This document shows positions 1,951 to 21,148 of a stretch of 64,000 nt of DNA, in pieces. This DNA is from a virus. The notes beneath the pieces were generated by a model. The model was not told the DNA's origin and made no database searches. It was given only the letters and a program-made list of their open reading frames with translations. Numbering within the stretch: the stretch's first letter is position 1; every line of letters begins with the position of its first letter. Both the position numbers and the translations under genes were made by a program. The stretch spans positions 62,001-126,000 of IMG/VR virus record IMGVR_UViG_3300027734_000044; one strand, written 5' to 3'.

Positions 1951-4320
1951 TTATGAACCGCAAGCTTCGCAATCTTCAGGATTGTCTATGCTACAAGTTA
2001 AGTCGCTATAGTTATCATCCTCTGATTTAGGAAGTTCTTGATTTCTGCTTAGATCTATACCTAGACCTTTTATAGCTGTTGTAGCAGCTTTAGTTCTTAT
2101 ATAATAACTTCCAGTCTTTAATCCCTTATCCCATCCATAAAAATGAGCTGAAGAAAGTTTAGCAAAGTTAGCATCTTGAACAAATAAATTCATACTTTGA
2201 CTTTGACATATAAAAGGTGCTCTAGCTGCAGCATGATCTATAATAATCTTCTGACTCATCTCCCAAGCAGTCTTATAAATGATCTTAATCTCATCTGGTA
2301 TTTCAGCAATATCTTGTACTGATCCATTATTAATAATGATCTTATCCCTAAGATTATCATCCCACATATTAAGTTTAACTAAGTCTTTAACAAGATGCTT
2401 ATTAACTACTGGAAATTCTCCAGATAATGTTTTTCTAATGTAAATGTTAGAAGTGAAAGGTTCAAAACATTCATTGTTTCCTAAGATCTGACTTGTAGAA
2501 GCAGTAGGCATAGGAGCAAGCAATAAAGAATTTCTAGCTCCGAAAGTCTTAACTCTTTCTCTTAATTCTTCCCATTCCCATCTTGTACTAGGTGATTCGT
2601 TCCATAAATCAAATTGAAATAATCCTTTAGATAATGGCGATCCCTTAAATGTTTGGTATGCACCTTCTTTTTCTGCAAGATCCACTGAAGCACACATAGC
2701 TCCGTAATAAATTGCTTCGAAAATGTCTCTATCTAAATTTTTTGCTTCTTCCGATTCAAAAGGTATTTTTAGAATAGCAAATGTATCAGCTAAACCTTGA
2801 ACTCCAATACCAATTGGTCTGTGCTTCATATTAGAGGTCTTAGTTTCCTTAGTAGGATAATAGTTAACATCAATCACTCTATTAAGATTGATAGTTGCTG
2901 TGTAAGCTATATCCTTAAGAGCATTAAGATCGTATTTAGGTTTCTTACCAGGAATAATGAATTTAGGTAATGCAATAGAAGCTAAATTACAAACTGCAGT
3001 TTCTTTTGAATCTGAATACTCCATAATCTCAGTACAAAGATTAGATGACTTAATAGTACCTAAATTCTTCTGATTTGATTTTATATTAGCTGCATCCTTA
3101 TAAAGCATATAAGGAGTTCCAGTTTCGATCTGTGCTTCAATTATTTTATACCAAAGCTCTTGAGCTTTAATTGTTTTTCTTCCTCTTCCTTCAGCTTCAT
3201 ATTTAGTATAAAGTTTAACAAAGTCCTCACCGTATACGTCGTCTAATCCTGGTGCTTCATCAGGAGAGAATAAAGTCCATTCTCCATCTTCCTTAACTCT
3301 TTCCATAAATAAATCCGGTGTCCATAAAGCTAAGAAAAGATCCCTAGCTCTCATCTCCTCTTTACCGTGATTTTTTCTAAGATTTAAAAAGTCTTCAACA
3401 TCACAATGCCAAGGCTCCAAATAAACAGCAAAAGATCCCTTTCTTCTACCTCCACCTTGATCGACGTATCTTGCAGTTTCGTTAAATACTTTTAGCATCG
3501 GAATAATTCCGTTTGAGGTTCCGTTTGTTCCTCTAATATAAGCTCCTGTGCCTCTTACATTATGTATATGTAAACCAATACCTCCTGCATTTTTAGAGAT
3601 CTGAGCCACATCAGATAGTGTTTTATAGATACCTTGAATTGAATCATCATCCATTGAAACTAAGAAGCAAGAAGAAAGCTGGGGTCTTCTAGTACCCGCA
3701 TTAAATAAAGTAGGTGTAGCATGCGTGAAGTAACCCTGACTCATTAAGTCATATGTTTTATAAGCAGAGGCTAAATCTTCCTTGTGTATACCAATAGCAA
3801 CTCTCATTAACATTTGCTGTGGTCTTTCAGCAGGTAAACCATCAATCTTTAAAAGATATGATTTTTCTAAAGTCTTAAAACCAAAATAATCATAATCTAA
3901 ATCCCTATCTGCAATAATTTGTGAATCTATATCCTTAGCATTATTAACAATAATCTCGTATACATCATCAGCAATCATTGGAGCTTTTAAACCTGTCTTA
4001 GGATCAACATAATTATAAAGCTGATCAATCACACTCGAAAAACTTTTAGGTGTTCTTTTATGTAACGAGGTAACACAAATTCTAGAAGCTAAAATAGAAT
4101 AATCAGGATGGGTTGGGGTTAAAGCAGCTGCTGTTTCTGCTGCTAAAGTATCAAGTTCTACTGAAGAGATACCATCATATAAACCATGAATAACTTTCTT
4201 TGCAATTTCCATTGGCTCAATATAATCCATATTTAAACCATAAGATTGTTTCTTAACACGATTTAAAATTTTATCAAGCTTAACTCTTTCTTTAGCTCCG
4301 TCTCTCTTTGTTACTTCCAT
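1951..4320 (-). CDS. nrdA: Class Ia ribonucleoside-diphosphate reductase, alpha subunit
   Basis: Large catalytic subunit that reduces NDPs to dNDPs. An N-terminal ATP-cone (about residues 1-95, starting [13 protein letters not shown]) provides allosteric control. The catalytic barrel shows [13 protein letters not shown] (first redox cysteine), SSNLCTEI (Asn, thiyl-radical Cys and Glu), [11 protein letters not shown] (second redox cysteine) and [17 protein letters not shown] near the radical-transfer tyrosines. The C-terminal tail ends CEACGS, the CxxC pair that re-reduces the active site. The 789-residue length is full size. It is separated from nrdB by a collagen-like gene and a 54-residue ORF, unlike the usual adjacent nrdA-nrdB order. 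The leader is A/T-rich (AAAATAAAATAAAATA) with no Shine-Dalgarno. Confidence 0.95.
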
Positions 4321-4572: not shown

Positions 4573-6753
<2,181 letters not shown>

Positions 6754-8448: not shown

Positions 8449-9855
8449 TTATGATTTTTCTTTAATTACTTTTTGTATTTTCTCTATTTCTTTTTCACAT
8501 TCGAAATATTTCTTCTTTGTTGCTTTTCTTTGCCCGTAAAGTCCTTTTAATATTTCTCTTAATATAGGTTCTCTTCCTTCCTTACTATAAAATACCGCTC
8601 CTGACGAAGTTTTAATTGCACCTTCGGGTATGTTCTTAAGATTCTTACCTATATAAACCTCAGGGGATATACCCCATTGCATCATTGTATTAGGATAAAG
8701 AGAAGCAAAGTCAAAACAAGCGATCCATTCATATAATCCTTTTTCTGGCTTCTTAACATAAGCTCCTTCGAATTTAACATGATTTTCCTCTTTCCTTTCA
8801 TTTACAATTACCTGTTTTCTTTCTAAGAATTTTCTTAGCATAAGAACCTCAGTAGTCCAAACTGGAGATAATGCTCTATTGATCTCCACTCTACTTACTT
8901 CTGCGATTTTAAAGAAAGTAGAAAGTGTATCAAGTCTTTTATCTATATAGTGTACAAGAGCACAGTCAACTGCGTTATAAAATATGAACGTTTCAAAGTC
9001 TGACTCGTATAAATCTTTTAATGTTCCATTATAAGCAATCTTTTTAATCCCTATAGCTTGATTGGAAACATAATCTAATGAGTTAGACTCTCTGATTTTT
9101 ACTACCCTATCCCACTTCTTATAAATGTCAAGGTAATCGACCATTAAAACGTGCATAGGTATTTGATGCTTTCCTATAAGTACCCCACTAGGTGAAGCAA
9201 TCTTAGGATCTATACCTAATCTCTTAGCTCTGTTTATAATATAAGGCCAGTCATAACCAAACCAATTCCACCCAGTTATCAAAGGCATCTTAGGAACTAA
9301 TTTAGAAAGAAAAGTGTAGAGCATATCAAACTCACTTTCAAACTTTCTGTAATTAAAAGTCCAATCCCCATTTTGTCCTTCAAAATGATCATTAATCCTT
9401 TTCTCGATCTTTAATATCCTATCAGGACTCATATCCTCCAGACCTATAACAAGAACCTTACCTTGAGAAGAAGCCATTCCTATGGAAAGAATTCTATTCT
9501 TAGAATTCTCTGTGTCTAATGAATCTGCTCTGTTATCTGTCATCTCCACCTCAATATCGACGAAGTATTTTTTAGGCGTCTGGTAATCCCAAAGAGGCTT
9601 GGTTAATTCAGGATCTAGTGCTTCTAAAATTTCTACTACTCTATACTTATCAAACTTATATGTAGAAGATTTTTTAACAGGAAATCCGTCCCATGTTGTC
9701 CATTCTGAATCTTTCGATCTATCGCTAGCAGATGTTTTTTGCCAGACGAATTGAAGCGCTTTAGGAACTTGTAGTTTTAACAAATTTACGTCCCCTTCCT
9801 CTGTATAATGGGAGACAACTAAAGATGTACCTGAATTTTCTATATCAATAATCAT
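8449..9855 (-). CDS. 43: Family B DNA polymerase, N-terminal half (exonuclease + motif A)
   Basis: T4 gp43-like replicative polymerase fragment. The 3'-5' exonuclease is complete: YFVDIEVEM (Asp100, Glu102), LITGWNWFGYDWPYI and FYNAVDCALVHYID. Palm motif A is DFASLYPN at 382-389, carrying one catalytic aspartate. The protein ends at residue 468, in the region that in T4 gp43 lies just past motif A and before the fingers. Motif B (K-x3-N-S-x-Y-G) and motif C (D-T-D-S) are absent here and in all other frames of this window. The stop is clean and the dUTPase gene starts 3 bases later, so this is gene fission rather than a local frameshift. The C-terminal part must be encoded elsewhere if the enzyme is active. 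Confidence 0.9.
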   Translation of the reverse strand: MIIDIENSGTSLVVSHYTEEGDVNLLKLQVPKALQFVWQKTSASDRSKDSEWTTWDGFPVKKSSTYKFDKYRVVEILEALDPELTKPLWDYQTPKKYFVDIEVEMTDNRADSLDTENSKNRILSIGMASSQGKVLVIGLEDMSPDRILKIEKRINDHFEGQNGDWTFNYRKFESEFDMLYTFLSKLVPKMPLITGWNWFGYDWPYIINRAKRLGIDPKIASPSGVLIGKHQIPMHVLMVDYLDIYKKWDRVVKIRESNSLDYVSNQAIGIKKIAYNGTLKDLYESDFETFIFYNAVDCALVHYIDKRLDTLSTFFKIAEVSRVEINRALSPVWTTEVLMLRKFLERKQVIVNERKEENHVKFEGAYVKKPEKGLYEWIACFDFASLYPNTMMQWGISPEVYIGKNLKNIPEGAIKTSSGAVFYSKEGREPILREILKGLYGQRKATKKKYFECEKEIEKIQKVIKEKS

Positions 9856-12928: not shown

Positions 12929-13246
12929 CTAGTTTGTTTCATTGATTTTGAAGGATTTTAAAACTCTCCTTCCTAAAGTAGTCAAAGAAAAATAATTTGC
13001 TGAATCCTCTTGAACTTTGTATTGGATATACTTCTTCTGATTTCTAACCCAAGCCATAGTTGGTTTTCTCCCAGAGTCATCCTCAGGTATACTATCAAGA
13101 AATTCCATTAATTCTTTCTTTGTAACCTTTTCTTTCTCTGCTATGAAAGAAAGAACCTTAGTTGTTACTTGAGAAGGTTTAGCCCAAGCTATAGGTATTC
13201 TTGATTCCGTAATAAATTCGTTATATGAAAGAATCTTATTAATCAT
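12929..13246 (-). CDS. Protein with capsid-targeting-like leader and winged-helix-like body (105 aa)
   Basis: The first 14 residues, MINKILSYNEFITE, match the T4 capsid-targeting leader pattern ([FY]-x-E-F-I-x-E), with predicted cleavage after Glu14. The rest, VLSFIAEKEKVTKKELMEF then YFSLTTLGRRVLKSF, has the helix pattern and hairpin of a winged-helix DNA-binding domain. Its start overlaps the end of the 177-residue gene by 8 bases. If packaged, it could act on host DNA at once; that is inference. Confidence 0.7.
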   Translation of the reverse strand: MINKILSYNEFITESRIPIAWAKPSQVTTKVLSFIAEKEKVTKKELMEFLDSIPEDDSGRKPTMAWVRNQKKYIQYKVQEDSANYFSLTTLGRRVLKSFKINETN

Positions 13247-13772
13247 GATCTCTTCTAGAATAGATTACTATTTTGCTCTCCGGACCTTCTTGGATACTCC
13301 ACTTATCGTAGCTCCATTCATCCATTAAAGATTTAGCTTTCTCCATGTACTCTTCAAAATCCATATCTATATTTAAAGGCATCTCATCATAAATAATAGA
13401 AACCTTAGGATTAGATTGTAAATAATCTTTAATACACTCTCCTGCGATCTTATAGAATCTCATAAGCTCGGATTTAGTAAGTATAAACACATCATCTTCT
13501 CTAGACTTAAAGTCAGAGTCTTTAACTAAATAATCGTCCATTACAGACTCTCTAATAGGCTCTACAGAAAGAACTGCATAACTGTTTTCAGCGGATTCGA
13601 TGGTTATATTCCTAGAAAGCTTACCAAGGTTAACTACAAATCCTAGTTCATCCTCTTCACCCTCTATCTTGAAGAAATATTGTGACAATTTACCTTCTTT
13701 CTTCTTTACGAAAAAATCTCTACCGTATCCATCTTCGTTTAGAAATTGCTCAAATAATTTAATATGTTTCAT
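13239..13772 (-). CDS. Hypothetical protein with capsid-targeting-like leader (177 aa)
   Basis: Starts MKHIKLFEQFLNE, one of the cleanest matches here to the T4 leader, with predicted cleavage after Glu13. The remainder is acidic alpha/beta, including YFFKIEGEEDELGFVVNLG and a C-terminal KIVIYSRRDHD; no family recognised. The ATG is 3 bases after an AGATATATAA element (13776-13785), implying a very short mRNA leader. Confidence 0.7.
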   Translation of the reverse strand: MKHIKLFEQFLNEDGYGRDFFVKKKEGKLSQYFFKIEGEEDELGFVVNLGKLSRNITIESAENSYAVLSVEPIRESVMDDYLVKDSDFKSREDDVFILTKSELMRFYKIAGECIKDYLQSNPKVSIIYDEMPLNIDMDFEEYMEKAKSLMDEWSYDKWSIQEGPESKIVIYSRRDHD

Positions 13773-14064: not shown

Positions 14065-15582
14065 TTAAAATTCCGTTCCAAGCTCTGATCCCCATTTATC
14101 AGCTAGAGGAGCTATACATTGGATTGCTTTAGCATCTTTTTTCAAGTAAGCATGCTCTTTAAATAAGTTAGAGATAGCAGCGTTACCCCATTCTGGAGAA
14201 TTAACTCTTTGTAAGTAGTTAGCAAAGTTACATACTTCAGTAGCTGTTAATTCGGTGTCTTTACTTTTTCTAATAATAGCAGAAAGTAATGCGTGTGCAT
14301 AATCAGCTCTTGGTCTTCCAGACTTAGGATCTTTCTTATCGTCAGGAAGAGGTGCTCTTTCTGGGTTAGTGAACGGAAGCATCAAATCTTTAACAGGAAT
14401 TTCTTTTGCAATTTTATAGAAGTCTAAAAATGCTGCAGCAGCATCATATCCAACTTCTACTTGAAATGCACTAATAATATCTCTATCTGATAATTCGGTT
14501 ACACCCTCAGAAGCAAGTTCATCCATAACTCTTCTTAATCCCATTGCAGCATCTGTCCAAGCTCTAGGAGTTGGATATTTAATCATTTGCTTAGCAGGAT
14601 CAAGGTTATGGAAATATTCTTGTTGAAATTCTAAGAAGTCTAATAACTCAGGAATAACAATATTTTTTAATCTGCCACCTTCGATGAATTTTCTTAGGCC
14701 AGCAACGGTAGGTACAAAATTAACAACAGAGAAACGATCTCTAAGAGCTGTACCCATTGCTTTAACTTCTCTTGGGTCATCTTCCGCTCTGTTACCAGCA
14801 GCAACGATATACCATTTGCTTGGAATTTGATATGTTTGTCCAAGTCTTCTACTTTGTGCAAGTTTCATGAAAACTTTAATAACCTCTTGAGGCATACGAT
14901 TTAACTCATCGATAAAAAGAATTCCACCCATATTATCTTTACCATTATCATTAGGTAAAAGGTTTACAGATACGTTAGATCTTGTAATACCTCTTCCGTA
15001 AGGATCTTCTTCTGAAGGACTTGAAACGTCTACCACTGAAGGTACACCTGCAAAGTCAACTGGTTCTGCAAATTCACCATCTACGAAAGCTAAGTTTAGT
15101 GGCTTACCGTACATTTCTTTCCCTAGTTCGTCACATACTTGAGCAACGATTTGGGTTTTACCAATACCAGGTGCTCCGAAAATAAAAATAGGCTTAACGT
15201 CTAATACACCTTGATTGTTTCCTTCCTCGCCAGCTTTTAATACTGCTTTAAGACGAGTTTTAATCATCTTCTTAAGTTCCGGCTCTTTAACGTCAAGAAC
15301 GTCTTCACTTTTTGGATAAGTTAAAGGAACTTGAGCCTCGTTTGCCATCTCTGCATATGGAGTACCAGCAAAGAAATCTAAAAGTTGTTGCTCGATAGAT
15401 CCTTTATCAGGGTCGAATGCAACAGCCATAGGTTTACCAGCTTTAGCTCCAGAAGGTATTAGTCTTACTAATCCGTCTTTTATTGCTGTTTTTAAAGATT
15501 GCATCCATCCAGAAATCTTTGAGCCAATTCTTTCAAGGTATCCTTCGTTAACAAACTCATTAAAATTGTAAATACGTTTCAT
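14065..15582 (-). CDS. MoxR-type AAA+ ATPase with capsid-targeting-like leader
   Basis: AAA+ ATPase of the MoxR/RavA kind, expected to remodel proteins together with a VWA partner. Walker A is GAPGIGKT (about residues 135-142), Walker B GGILFIDELNR (~216-226), sensor 1 is VAAGNRAEDD (~257-266) and the arginine-finger region is ALRDRF (~278-283). The N-terminus, MKRIYNFNEFVNE, is a close match to the T4 capsid-targeting leader (F-x-E-F-V-x-E); such a leader is foreign to MoxR proteins. It lies 30 bases downstream of the VWA gene and, with the metallopeptidase before that, forms a three-gene unit. Confidence 0.9.
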   Translation of the reverse strand: MKRIYNFNEFVNEGYLERIGSKISGWMQSLKTAIKDGLVRLIPSGAKAGKPMAVAFDPDKGSIEQQLLDFFAGTPYAEMANEAQVPLTYPKSEDVLDVKEPELKKMIKTRLKAVLKAGEEGNNQGVLDVKPIFIFGAPGIGKTQIVAQVCDELGKEMYGKPLNLAFVDGEFAEPVDFAGVPSVVDVSSPSEEDPYGRGITRSNVSVNLLPNDNGKDNMGGILFIDELNRMPQEVIKVFMKLAQSRRLGQTYQIPSKWYIVAAGNRAEDDPREVKAMGTALRDRFSVVNFVPTVAGLRKFIEGGRLKNIVIPELLDFLEFQQEYFHNLDPAKQMIKYPTPRAWTDAAMGLRRVMDELASEGVTELSDRDIISAFQVEVGYDAAAAFLDFYKIAKEIPVKDLMLPFTNPERAPLPDDKKDPKSGRPRADYAHALLSAIIRKSKDTELTATEVCNFANYLQRVNSPEWGNAAISNLFKEHAYLKKDAKAIQCIAPLADKWGSELGTEF

Positions 15583-15603: not shown

Positions 15604-15613
15604 TTATATATCC
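15604..15613 (-). promoter_or_regulatory. Promoter-like element GGATATATAA
   Basis: 21 bases upstream of the MoxR ATG and touching the VWA gene's stop codon. The sequence between is almost pure A/G (AGAGAAAATAAAAATAAAAAA), a Bacteroidetes-like A-rich leader. Confidence 0.55.
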
Positions 15614-16659
15614 TAAATGGATGTGACTTCTTTATTGGGTAAAGTAATATCTATTCTATTACCAAATGGAATATCGTTACTGAATGGTTGTCCATTAAAC
15701 GTAAGAAGAACCCATATACATTTATCTTCGTACTCACCTATACCATATTGAGAAGCATTAGGGAAAGTAGCTTCGCCATCAGTAAAATAAATAAATACTG
15801 AAGGTACTATTCCTTTATCTAATAAATTTTCTTCCGTCCATTCAAATGGAGGATAAAATTCGGTACCTCCACTTTGAAGCTTTCCTACATCTATAGGATC
15901 ACCTGGTTGTATATGATCTACTCTATAGATATCAGTGTGACAGAATATAACATAAAGATCCTGTGGCGAATAGGCATCAACTATTGCTTTAGCTTCTCCT
16001 AAGAATTGAGCAACCATCTTATCCGATATAGATCCAGATGTATCTATAGCAACCACTACACATTCGAAATCTTCTTTGTATCTTTTGTAACCGTATTGTG
16101 CTTTACCTCCACCTAGGAATCTTCTGGAAGGAAGAGTATATTTACTTTTAGAAATAGCATCATCTATAAAAACTTCCAATTCTTTTCTCCAATCTACTAC
16201 AGCGGTTCTCATTCTCTGTAAAGCAGCTCTGATACCACCAGGTATATTACCTCTCGATTGAGATTCTGCGGCAGTTGTAGCAGCTTTCCATTGATCTTTT
16301 TTTGCATCAGGATCTTTGTCACCTGGCTCTCCGTCTCCAAGAGATCCGGTAGGATATACTTCACCTATTACAGTATGCCCAGATGGCTGTTTCCATGGGG
16401 TAACTTCATAGGATGCTCCAGGTTCTTTAGGATCAACTTCTTCAAATTCATTACCTCTTCCACTACCTGAATCTTTGCCGGGTTTTCCTGGTTTAGAATC
16501 CCCGTTAGGATCATTTTCTTCTCCACCCTCTTCATTACCCGGCTCGTCTTCTTCTTCGTCCCATCCCTCTGTATTTTTAGGTGGCTTAGTAGATTCTCCA
16601 GAGCCAGGTCCTTTTTGAGATCTAACTATTTTCTTAACCTCTGTAATTTTAGCTTTCAT
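15613..16659 (-). CDS. VWA-domain protein (C-terminal half of a DUF2201-like protein)
   Basis: Residues 1-130 are a disordered, Gly/Pro/Glu/Asp-rich tail. The C-terminal ~150 residues are a von Willebrand A domain with a complete MIDAS: DTSGSIS (~204-210), the Thr of GGTEF (~263) and FTDGEA (~290). DFECVVVAID at its start fits the first strand. In cellular DUF2201 proteins a metallopeptidase-like domain and a VWA domain lie on one chain; here the upstream gene supplies the first part and its TAA is followed directly by this ATG. It probably works with the MoxR ATPase encoded next. Confidence 0.85.
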   Translation of the reverse strand: MKAKITEVKKIVRSQKGPGSGESTKPPKNTEGWDEEEDEPGNEEGGEENDPNGDSKPGKPGKDSGSGRGNEFEEVDPKEPGASYEVTPWKQPSGHTVIGEVYPTGSLGDGEPGDKDPDAKKDQWKAATTAAESQSRGNIPGGIRAALQRMRTAVVDWRKELEVFIDDAISKSKYTLPSRRFLGGGKAQYGYKRYKEDFECVVVAIDTSGSISDKMVAQFLGEAKAIVDAYSPQDLYVIFCHTDIYRVDHIQPGDPIDVGKLQSGGTEFYPPFEWTEENLLDKGIVPSVFIYFTDGEATFPNASQYGIGEYEDKCIWVLLTFNGQPFSNDIPFGNRIDITLPNKEVTSI

Positions 16660-17358
16660 TTATTTTAAATATTTAGTTACATCAGATTCTGATATAGGAT
16701 CGAAATCAATTTCTCCAGTAGATGGATCAATAGATCTTACAACACCATATGTATTTGTTTTAGTATCTCTAATTACATCACCAATAACAATTTCAGAATC
16801 GGGAGAATCCCCTTCTCCCCCTCCATCAGGTTCATCTGGTGGTTTAGCACCAGACTTAACTAGCCATTCATAAATTTGTTCAGACGATAGATTAACGAAT
16901 TTCTTATCATCAGGATGGTATCCGCACCCAGGATAAAGAGCTTCTTTAGGCATTGTTCCTACACCTTCTAATAATTGATTTAAAGCGTAATCTGCTGCTA
17001 CGTTCCATAATTGAGGATCTGGCATTTTTCTAGCAAAGTGAAATAATACGTTGTGCATTATCTCGTGGCATATAACGAATATAATTTCGCCCTCGGTTTT
17101 TGCTAAAACAAACCCTGGATCATAGTGTATGCTAACACCATCTGTTGCCATCGTCTTATATGGCAAATTTCGATTTTCTCTGATTACTAAATCGGAAAGA
17201 AGTTTTCTGAAGAATGGATATTTACCCATAATATCGAAGCAACAAAGCCTCATTTTTTTAAAAGCATCTTCCGATATACTATTTCCTTTTGGCTCGTCTT
17301 TATCTAAATAAACTTGTTCAAATAATTTAAACTCGCTCCATCCGAGGATTCTTCTCAT
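16660..17358 (-). CDS. DUF2201-like metallopeptidase domain with capsid-targeting-like leader
   Basis: Zincin-like domain with the HExxH motif in FVICHEIMHNVLFHFARK (about residues 94-111) and a following WNVAADYALNQLL helix, as in the putative metallopeptidase domain found N-terminal to VWA in DUF2201 proteins. It starts MRRILGWSEFKLFEQVYL, a leader-like sequence sharing KLFEQVYL with the 101-residue protein at 9920. A Pro/Gly/Asp linker lies at ~170-190 and a small beta domain (IVIGDVIRDTKTNTYGVV) at the end. Peptidase activity is predicted from the motif only. Confidence 0.8.
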   Translation of the reverse strand: MRRILGWSEFKLFEQVYLDKDEPKGNSISEDAFKKMRLCCFDIMGKYPFFRKLLSDLVIRENRNLPYKTMATDGVSIHYDPGFVLAKTEGEIIFVICHEIMHNVLFHFARKMPDPQLWNVAADYALNQLLEGVGTMPKEALYPGCGYHPDDKKFVNLSSEQIYEWLVKSGAKPPDEPDGGGEGDSPDSEIVIGDVIRDTKTNTYGVVRSIDPSTGEIDFDPISESDVTKYLK

Positions 17359-17371
17359 TTCTATTTTTTAT

Positions 17372-17381
17372 TTATATATCT
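17372..17381 (-). promoter_or_regulatory. Promoter-like element AGATATATAA
   Basis: 13 bases upstream of the metallopeptidase ATG, overlapping the stop codon of the ligase/NMNAT fusion gene. Likely drives the metallopeptidase-VWA-MoxR unit. Confidence 0.55.
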
Positions 17382-19354
17382 TCATTAGGGTTTTCGAGTT
17401 CTTGAATTTCTCTATTGAATTCATTAAACAATACTGCAATAGATTTAGGAACTTTACTTTTGAATTCTTGAAAATCACCATTTCTAATATAATCTCTTAC
17501 TGTATTATTATCAGACCATGCTGGTGTTTTAAATATCTCTATGTCTCCACCGTTAAGATCATATTTATTTCTAACCCATTCTCTTTGGAGTAGCATATTT
17601 TCGAAATCATTCTCACCTATACAAATAGATGCTGGGTTTGCCACCTTAGAAACTGTATTAATAGCATCTTCTAATAAATTACTAGGAACTATTTCGAATC
17701 CTGCAAACATCTTATCATTTTCAGAAACTAGAGATCCTATTGCTTTTCTAACAAGCTCGTCAGAGAAAGGGAATTTATTATTAGGATCGCCTCCTGGGTG
17801 AACCACACATAAAAATACTGGAAGATCGTTTTCTTTTTTAACTCTAGAACACATCTTTAAGTGTCCATTATTAAAAGGCTGAAATTTCCCAATTATAACA
17901 TTGACCTTACCGTTAGATTCATTCAATATCTTAATCTTCTTTTTCTCTTTATTTGTAGAAACTACTTTTTTAAAATCCTTAAAAGAAAAGAATTCTGAAG
18001 TATCCTCCTCTGATTCTTTATCCGAATTTTCAGATTCTAAGATCATATCAGTATGATCAGATAATAATTTTTCCTCTACAGCCTCAGGTTCTTCTTCATA
18101 TTCTACATTGAATCTAGATCCTGCTTTTTTAAACCAAACAAAAGTAGGCATACCTAATGATTCCTCTATTCTTTCTTTTCTTTTAGCATTTATATAAGAA
18201 GCTATTTCTTCTACTAGTTGGTTAAATTGATTTATTAACCCAGAGGTAAAAAATCCATGAGGCTTTCTTTTAAACTTTCTAAATGAATTAAGAATCATTT
18301 GTAGAATATCAATATATGAGTCATCTTTATCTAAATAAGAAATAACCTCAGTATCCTGTATTAAATCCTTATTTAGTGCAAATTCTTCAGATTTTAAATA
18401 CTCAGGTTTGTCAAAGTCTACTCCGAGATATCTTTCACCCTCTTCGTAGATAAAGTTCTTAAATACGGAGAATACAAAATTAATGTATCTCTCCTCTGGC
18501 TCTATTCCTTTAGCATCAAAAGATTCTACTCCTTTTTCGAGTATGAAGTTCATTACATCTATTAAACATAAAGAATATATGTCACTTGGGAAATGAGATG
18601 ATCTTGTTGCTTTTCTATCTTTTGATATTTCATAGAAAACAGGATCTACCATCTTAGCAAGAATTGTCTCATCTTTTCCTTCGTCAGAAAATTTAAAAAC
18701 TAAGGAATCAATTTCCCCGTGAAGATCCTTACCTAATGTTGTTTTAACTATTTCTGGGTTTAAAATAGATATAAGATATTTAGAGAAACTCTCAGTTTTA
18801 AATCTATTTCTCAGATCCATTAAAGGAGTAGAAATAAAATCCATTATTGATAATTTCTGATCCTCGCTCAGTTTTCCTTGAAAAATAATTGGCGCTCTTT
18901 CAACACCAATCTTATCTGCCCATTTGTCAAGTTCATCTTTATCCTGTACTGTTCTTTCAGTTTCGCCAAATTCATCCCTAATAAGTATGTGTGTTAATAT
19001 TAAATGATTTTTAGGGACTCTTTCATATTCTATTCTGACAGGTTTAGTATTAGGAAAATATGTCATACCAAATCTCCATCCTTTAGGGATTTCTTCTTTA
19101 GTAGATTCTGGCAAAGAGTCTATATAATTTATAGGCTTTTCGTAATAAGACATTAATATCCTATCGACTTTAGTAATAGGATTTTCTTGATCCTTCTTAT
19201 AAAATGAAATATTATTTCCAGTAAAATCTCTCTCAAAAGAGAAAGTGGATCCATCAAGATTTTCCGTTACGGTCAATTCTTTACCAAAAAGCTTTTCTAT
19301 GAAGCTTTTTCCTTTATCTTGAAAGATGTCCGATAAGTGTTTTATTCCTGACAT
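17372..19354 (-). CDS. Ligase-like (Lys-less) domain fused to NMN adenylyltransferase-like domain
   Basis: Residues ~1-240 resemble the RNA-ligase/nucleotidyltransferase fold. TVTENLDGSTF (28-38) occupies motif I, RFGMTYFPNTKPVRIEYERV motif III, GEIDSLVFKF (213-222) motif IV and AKMVDP (233-238) motif V. The motif I lysine (K-x-D-G) that carries AMP is Asn32 here, so normal covalent adenylation looks impossible. Residues ~478-640 are a cytidylyltransferase-like NMNAT: GKFQPFNNGH for the phosphate-binding loop and NTVRDYIRNGD at the end. That domain would join NMN and ATP to give NAD. A linker near residue 445 contains FFSFKDFKKVV. The fusion is complete, with no frameshift. Confidence 0.75.
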   Translation of the reverse strand: MSGIKHLSDIFQDKGKSFIEKLFGKELTVTENLDGSTFSFERDFTGNNISFYKKDQENPITKVDRILMSYYEKPINYIDSLPESTKEEIPKGWRFGMTYFPNTKPVRIEYERVPKNHLILTHILIRDEFGETERTVQDKDELDKWADKIGVERAPIIFQGKLSEDQKLSIMDFISTPLMDLRNRFKTESFSKYLISILNPEIVKTTLGKDLHGEIDSLVFKFSDEGKDETILAKMVDPVFYEISKDRKATRSSHFPSDIYSLCLIDVMNFILEKGVESFDAKGIEPEERYINFVFSVFKNFIYEEGERYLGVDFDKPEYLKSEEFALNKDLIQDTEVISYLDKDDSYIDILQMILNSFRKFKRKPHGFFTSGLINQFNQLVEEIASYINAKRKERIEESLGMPTFVWFKKAGSRFNVEYEEEPEAVEEKLLSDHTDMILESENSDKESEEDTSEFFSFKDFKKVVSTNKEKKKIKILNESNGKVNVIIGKFQPFNNGHLKMCSRVKKENDLPVFLCVVHPGGDPNNKFPFSDELVRKAIGSLVSENDKMFAGFEIVPSNLLEDAINTVSKVANPASICIGENDFENMLLQREWVRNKYDLNGGDIEIFKTPAWSDNNTVRDYIRNGDFQEFKSKVPKSIAVLFNEFNREIQELENPNEDI

Positions 19355-20548: not shown

Positions 20549-21148
20549 TTATAGATTATTTGGTTGGAATATTGGCTGGTTTGGCGTTTCTTGCCTCGTG
20601 TAATATAGATTGATTCTATTCATTGCTATATCATCAAGAACAGGTACTTCACCTTTTTTAACTTCACCTTTTTGATAAAGGTCAGCGATATTGTCTTCTA
20701 ATTGTTTTTCTGATCTAATATTAGGAAGTTCACTCTTAGCAAAATCCTCATTAGTGTGTCTCATGAATTCAAGATTGACCTCGCTATCATTTGCTGGTGC
20801 ACTTTTAGCTACCTCAAACTTAGTTGGTCCAAATACTCTTTTAAGAACGCTAGGAACAACAGAAACAAGCCCAAATAGATTTTCGTATCCAGTATCTAAA
20901 TCACCAGTTCTACCAGATCTATTTTGTTGAGCAAGTCCTTTACCTACTCTAGCCATATTGTTAATTCTATCCTCCATTTTCTGGAAGAAATTCTGTGCTT
21001 TAGAAAGTATACTTGGGTTGCTAGACAAATTATAATAATTTTTAGCTCTATCCTCGTAACTATTGGCATTGTTTCCAAGATGCCTAGACCACATTATTTC
21101 TTCCGCTTCATTAAGACAAAATCTTTCGTAATCTTTAATATTTTTCAT
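20549..21148 (-). CDS. Hypothetical protein with capsid-targeting-like leader (199 aa)
   Basis: Begins MKNIKDYERFCLNEAEE; Y-x-x-F-x-L-N-E is a one-residue-longer variant of the leader. The body is polar and helical (YYNLSSNPSILSKAQNFFQK) with a Gly/Ser/Arg-rich stretch and a C-terminal Gln/Pro/Asn tail. Unknown function. It heads a run of genes on the minus strand and sits 20 bases after a GGATATATAA element. Confidence 0.65.
   Translation of the reverse strand: MKNIKDYERFCLNEAEEIMWSRHLGNNANSYEDRAKNYYNLSSNPSILSKAQNFFQKMEDRINNMARVGKGLAQQNRSGRTGDLDTGYENLFGLVSVVPSVLKRVFGPTKFEVAKSAPANDSEVNLEFMRHTNEDFAKSELPNIRSEKQLEDNIADLYQKGEVKKGEVPVLDDIAMNRINLYYTRQETPNQPIFQPNNL

Follow-up and report, generated by a model that had tools for sequence, protein, structure and literature searches.

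A phage protein joining an RNA-ligase-type fold to an NMNAT-type HIGH domain, both with eroded active sites: a candidate conserved double pseudoenzyme

The closest described system for the N-terminal half of the protein analysed here, P0001, is the T4 RNA ligase Rnl2 (gp24.1; Pfam RNA_ligase, PF09414), with which it shares the N-terminal nucleotidyltransferase fold and the motif order I, Ia, III, IV and V. The functions of most of the Rnl2 residues mapped below have been described, and Rnl2 R55K retains strand joining (PMC3149579). Some archaeal RNA ligases lack the second lysine of motif V, the archaeal PAB1020 ligase also having a valine at the position of Rnl2 K227; on pre-adenylated donors, strand joining is fully kept by MthRnl K97A and kept in part by T4 Rnl2 K35A (PMC3514331). 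As compared to Rnl2, P0001 lacks the motif I lysine and the motif III glutamate, has an aspartate in motif IV and a single lysine in motif V, carries a helical domain that does not match PF18043, the C-terminal domain of Rnl2, and is fused to a HIGH domain.

For the C-terminal half, archaeal-type NadM (1f9a, 1m8g, 2qjo) shares the HIGH fold and the G(K/R)FQPF..GH signature and gives the best profile matches. In the clade of P0001, however, asparagine stands for the first histidine of HxGH, SGTxVR is lost, and the HIGH domain is fused to a ligase module rather than to Nudix. The nearest phage HIGH-domain families are the cyanophage cytidyltransferases phrog_395 and phrog_3041, which have no recognised fusion to a ligase module of the P0001 type; the one example inspected, from Prochlorococcus phage P-RSM4, reads GRFNPPTIGH, unlike the Asn-altered signature of P0001. 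In P-RSM4 this cytidyltransferase adjoins a DUF6267 protein (L114:1282-2277 and 2264-3424; phrog_455 matches both) with the motifs KWDG...EGFV...YKIVD, and DUF6267 may be another ligase-like family, the hhalign comparison being non-significant. In Microcystis phage Mel-JY01 a single protein (WWT39297.1) combines a ligase-like module with a HIGH domain, but the domain order is the reverse of that in P0001 and the ligase part (EKLDG) is of the type termed fam5 below. Literature searches found no description of the ligase/HIGH fusion seen in P0001.

The window analysed is a stretch of 64,000 nucleotides spanning bases 62001-126000 of an IMG/VR virus record of 129.8 kb (G000), whose source is a large tailed phage carrying several T4-like genes (a DNA helicase, a weak UvsY match and a T4 Rnl1-type ligase). 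The open reading frame and the fusion of a ligase fold to an NMNAT-type (HIGH) domain, as put forward in the original prediction, were confirmed, and the strand, which had not been given, is minus (Table 1). The order of parts is ligase-like module, helical domain, acidic linker and HIGH/NMNAT-type domain. An AlphaFold2 model built with 36 homologues has a pLDDT of 77 for the full protein, residues 1-406 by themselves reaching 85.6; in the linker (residues 415-473) the value is below 50. Neither Pfam nor PHROGs has a family specific to the ligase part.

Table 1. Features of the P0001 locus and of related genes; positions are those of the window unless a record or locus is named.
Feature	Position	Strand	Basis or remark
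P0001, whole gene, 660 aa	17372..19354	minus	ORF, ATG start
RNA-ligase-type nucleotidyltransferase fold, residues 1-246	18617..19354	minus	AlphaFold2; Z 11.3 to 1s68
Motif I ENLDGS, residues 31-36	19247..19264	minus	N32 replaces nucleophilic Lys
T98, equivalent of Rnl2 E99 (ribose contact)	19061..19063	minus	A/I/L/T/V in 18 clade members
IEYERVPKNHLILTHI, residues 108-123	18986..19033	minus	A3/A4 invariant columns
Motif IV IDSLVFK, residues 215-221	18692..18712	minus	D216 replaces Glu
Motif V LAKMVDP, residues 232-238	18641..18661	minus	K234 = K225 kept; V236 replaces K227
All-helical domain, residues 257-399	18158..18586	minus	kept in all clades including huge phages
EFFSFKDFKKVVSTN in disordered linker, residues 454-468	17951..17995	minus	resembles N-terminal tags of the phage's other proteins
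HIGH superfamily (NMNAT/PPAT-type) domain, residues 482-650	17405..17911	minus	Pfam, Z about 15, profile matches
GKFQPFNNGH, residues 489-498	17861..17890	minus	altered first HIGH signature, invariant in clade
WSDNNTVR, residues 613-620	17495..17518	minus	eroded second signature; sister clade SGTxVR
MoxR-like AAA ATPase	14065-15582	minus	Pfam
VWA-like DUF2201	15613-16659	minus	Pfam
DUF2201_N metallopeptidase domain	16660-17358	minus	Pfam
Separate Rnl1, EKMDG	G000:C1:39898-41016 (L101:898-2016)	minus	T4 Rnl1 E 1.5e-8
fam5 examples	L055:4561-5829 and equivalents; L105:5302-7218		motif EKTDG, ordered ligase-like motifs

The MoxR-like ATPase, DUF2201 and DUF2201_N genes are consecutive and lie directly downstream of the P0001 gene; the name 'HNH endonuclease' given to phrog_1314 in PHROGs is unsupported by the Pfam matches. 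Elsewhere in the record, inspection by eye suggested that a B-family DNA polymerase is split, its N-terminal part lying at window 8449-9855 and a second part, with NSIYGATGNQYF, at G000:C1:51084-52253, about 18 kb away. A 716 aa protein (4573-6723, minus) with collagen-like GPTG/GATG repeats is perhaps a tail fibre.

The predicted ligase fold of the N-terminal part was borne out by modelling of residues 1-246: the top Foldseek match of the module in the PDB is T4 Rnl2 (2hvr, E 5.5e-8), VIA-align to the Rnl2 NTase domain 1s68 gives the tabulated Z over 194 residues, and the 50 best structural matches are ligases without exception. P0001 itself has no match to Pfam RNA_ligase (cut-off 27), while its relatives L131 (29.1) and L133 (28.5), of the active-looking clade, score above the cut-off, L040 lies slightly under it (E 9.9e-6), and other members of the active-looking clade score 16-24. 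A PDB sequence search with residues 1-400 of L040 gave no match.

At motif I the context is TENLDGS, the sister clade having NEKMDGS in the same columns, and hhalign places N32 on Rnl2 K35. A 100% identical protein occurs on another contig (L002) and asparagine is present in all members of the window clade, so that N32 is not a misread, and the N-L-D-G reported in place of K-x-D-G is real. The remaining residues were mapped by a profile alignment to eight Rnl2 proteins, whose hhalign E value is weak (0.015) but which is backed by 37 distinct homologues having K, R, E, E and K in the columns of K35, R55, E99, E204 and K225, and V in that of K227. The map assigns K35 to N32, K54 to K53, R55 to K54, E99 to T98, F119 to L120, E204 to D216, K225 to K234 and K227 to V236. 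The earlier view that motifs III-V are preserved therefore holds for K234 but not for the glutamates of motifs III and IV or the second lysine of motif V. Position 98 varies (A, I, L, T or V) although the residues around it are invariant, which is evidence against AMP being bound in the ligase pocket in the canonical way; an alignment to fam5 puts T98 at or beside an invariant glutamate. The stretch IEYERVPKNHLILTHI is one of the best-conserved parts of the family, whether a clade looks active or degenerate.

The HIGH domain superimposes on NadD and NadM with a Z of about 15 and on PPAT with about 14; as these folds score alike, NMN specificity is a candidate assignment. A PDB profile search of the domain places NadM at the top, ahead of PPAT, whereas the Pfam CTP_transf_like match (E 0.0016, 19.1 bits) is below its cut-off of 21, and the PHROGs match of the protein is phrog_395. 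Both NMNAT signatures named in the original prediction are present in altered form. GKFQPFNNGH retains the second histidine of (H/T)xGH and has asparagine at the first position (NNGH), and the segment TVRDYIRNGD is preceded by SDNNTVR, which departs from the canonical (S/T)GTxVR type in lacking S/T-G-S/T. Within the window clade K490, H498, N616 and R620 do not vary; in view of the invariance of GKFQPFNNGH, N616 and R620, binding of a nucleotide, or a reaction on one, may persist in the HIGH pocket. In the sister M clade the second histidine is gone as well (GDFQPFNNGD).

Successive scans yielded 12, then 205, then 424 tblastn-confirmed stretches in IMG/VR, and six GenBank phage records of 462-735 kb carry family members. 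Genomes of 84,980 prokaryote species yielded no confirmed relative, and a plasmid search and a genome-contig scan gave none, so the family is virus-only so far. The motif I residue is K, N, Q, M or D across the family, with at least five changes between K and non-K in a 57-row tree, four of them forced by well-supported branches. The Asn and Met clades group together beside an 18-row K-intact clade, with further K-intact rows outside, indicating that the lysine was lost in the window lineage. The sister clade retains all the mapped ligase residues except the second motif V lysine, and the HIGH motifs of the active-looking clade are GRFQPFH(N/S/Q)GH and SGTxVR-type; an interim view, by which the catalytic set is retained nowhere in the family, was overturned by a scan seeded with L067. 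The inspection of relatives for N versus K, suggested beforehand, thus revealed genuine variation and a K-bearing clade with a nearly full catalytic set, and the asparagine is a lineage-specific loss, neither a misreading nor a family rule. The ligase-like proteins L044:6001-8826 and L072:5998-9339 have in common an additional C-terminal module of ~400 aa (..N.ELVDF.FD...SSKAGS.GG..), which occurs with or without a HIGH domain and has no family match.

Loss of the catalytic residues has not been accompanied by relaxation of the sequence. Among close Asn-clade pairs, most dN/dS values for the ligase, helical and HIGH domains fall within 0.01-0.07 (one helical-domain value, for the pair L033/L038, is 0.14), and those for the linker within 0.10-0.29; the values are rough because dS is near saturation for several pairs. 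By these ratios, fold and sequence are under strong purifying selection, and P0001 is no pseudogene in decay.

Several clades whose ligase site is incomplete have, directly upstream, a gene encoding about 423 aa, termed fam5, with the invariant blocks EK.DG, AR, E, EG.VF and KLTG. It gave no informative Pfam or PHROG match, and hhalign against Rnl2 (E 0.31) and DUF6267 (E 0.28) was non-significant in both cases; it is called ligase-like on account of its invariant motif order and a match to A4 (E 0.018). The EKLSG clade encodes its HIGH domain in a gene of its own, located downstream (L055:9544-10917). The states of the two active sites were compared over 102 distinct loci, those left unclassed being without a HIGH domain or having a truncated one. 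HIGH motifs are intact at 32 loci with an intact ligase of their own (fam0), at 22 with fam5 and at 1 with neither (L091), where the contig begins about 200 bases upstream and fam5 would for this reason not be visible. They are altered at 20 loci with neither an intact fam0 ligase nor fam5, and at 3 despite an intact ligase; two of the latter (L166, L188) keep the first HIGH motif and fail the second-motif pattern only, and L117, with intact ligase residues and an eroded HIGH site, is the true exception. An initial rule, by which fam5 alone predicts intact HIGH motifs, gave way to one in which any intact ligase does so, whether fam5 or the protein's own. The tracking of intact HIGH motifs with an intact-looking ligase is suggestive and no statistical proof, as the independent events are few (3 changes of ligase state, 2 of fam5). 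The window lineage has neither an intact ligase of its own nor fam5, which was not found in the window record or its nearest relatives searched, and its HIGH site is eroded.

The original prediction had also coupled the protein to NAD synthesis, and here the evidence points the other way. The NAMPT/NadV profile (PF04095) has no match in the 129.8 kb record, which may be incomplete, nor in 13 of 14 other IMG/VR records, including relatives of 90-206 kb; it is present in one IMG/VR record of 429 kb and in all five huge GenBank phages, in one marginally. In a published survey NadV accompanied NadM in every NadM-carrying phage (PMC9503650). Erosion of the HIGH motifs in exactly the window lineage, together with the lack of NAMPT, argues against NAD synthesis in this phage and leaves such a role for P0001 unsupported, with the proviso that NMN is supplied by hosts and that genes may be missing from incomplete records. 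The record also encodes a DUF4326 protein (G000:C1:43456-43842, L101:4456-4842, minus; E 1.4e-17), a domain linked to NAD-based signalling (PMC7824862).

Many unrelated proteins of the phage start with tags like MKRIYNFNEFVNEG. FxxF-type N-terminal tags occur in 14 of 133 ORFs (10.5%) against 2.1% of interior windows, and in huge-phage loci in 13 of 99 against 1.1%, by a regular expression picked post hoc, after the tags had been inspected. Tags of the form MK.I..F..F...NE are found at the N-termini of window ORFs 13239-13772, 14065-15582, 20549-21148 and 12929-13246, are also abundant in L100 and L101, and resemble the T4 capsid targeting sequence, which is common to T4 internal proteins (PMC3012670). 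FxxF-like stretches follow the ligase module in all clades checked, the A-clade linkers reading FFSYDEFIS or FSFSDFKKEF.

Catalytic losses in both halves combined with strong conservation suggest that P0001 is probably a binding or packaging protein and not an NAD maker. On balance we lean towards its being a double pseudoenzyme, conserved as such and descended from a coupled ligase/HIGH nucleotidyltransferase, likely with a non-catalytic binding, scaffold or virion-cargo role. Its ancestor would have been a bifunctional phage enzyme made of a T4-Rnl2-type RNA ligase module and an NMNAT-type HIGH nucleotidyltransferase; in the window lineage both active sites would have decayed under continuing selection on fold and sequence. 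The ligase module, with its conserved DR.PKN.L.LT stretch, may hold nucleic acid or a partner, and the HIGH pocket perhaps still holds a nucleotide; ligase-AMP would not be formed and NAD probably not made. A HIGH domain still active as an NMNAT or related nucleotidyltransferase despite its altered signature, and regulated or targeted by the ligase module, as in the original prediction, would fit the invariance of H498, K490, N616 and R620, the domain dN/dS of 0.01-0.07 and the preference for NadM over PPAT in the profile search, but we regard it as unlikely: asparagine opens (H/T)xGH and SGTxVR is lost in the very clades that lost the ligase, the M clade has dispensed with the second histidine, and NadV/NAMPT has no match in the record. 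Against the double-pseudoenzyme reading stand the invariance of GKFQPFNNGH, N616 and R620, the lack of the second motif V lysine in some archaeal RNA ligases as well, the small number of independent splits behind the co-variation, the exception L117, and the ability of ligases without the motif I lysine to seal pre-adenylated donors. P0001 might then be a step-3-only ligase, forming no adenylate of its own and sealing 5'-adenylated (App) RNA from the separate, canonical Rnl1 of the phage, as motif I lysine mutants of MthRnl and partly T4 Rnl2 retain step 3 (PMC3514331) and K53, K54 and K234 are kept. This is highly improbable in our judgement, given the variable residue at the ribose-binding glutamate, the aspartate in motif IV, and the parallel erosion of the HIGH site, which sealing activity would not lead one to expect.

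Packaging of P0001 in the virion and delivery at infection, the linker motif acting as a putative prohead-targeting tag and the modules as cargo, predicts a location, and is weighed separately for this reason, being compatible with the double-pseudoenzyme reading. It is a tentative proposal that draws on the enrichment of tags at N-termini, the like motifs after the ligase module in every clade checked, the MKKFNAFLIEA start of the P-RSM4 cytidyltransferase, and reports of NMNAT-like cytidyltransferase proteins in several cyanophage virion proteomes (PMC10665884); it has to contend with the post hoc choice of the pattern and with a tag-like motif confined to the linker of P0001, with none at its N-terminus. 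A 'virion structural protein' label first taken for the Atu_ph07 cytidyltransferase belongs to a neighbouring gene. As to why the two sites co-vary, the ancestral HIGH domain, carried in the virion, might have made or recycled the ligase cofactor and decayed once the ligase died without replacement by fam5; examples would be the conversion of NMN to NAD for an NAD-using ligase, or the addition or removal of NAD-type RNA caps. We hold this to be rather improbable in itself; if it were true, a conserved double-pseudoenzyme scaffold would remain, as in the window.

P0001 belongs to a sizeable virus-only family, spread over hundreds of IMG/VR contigs and phages of up to 735 kb, in which an RNA-ligase fold is joined to an NMNAT-type fold and the ligase lysine has disappeared on several occasions, the fold itself being retained. 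That HIGH motifs co-vary with ligase integrity suggests a functional connection, open to testing, of RNA ligation with the chemistry of nucleotide cofactors in phages. Biochemical work can take its natural positive controls from the active-looking sister clade.
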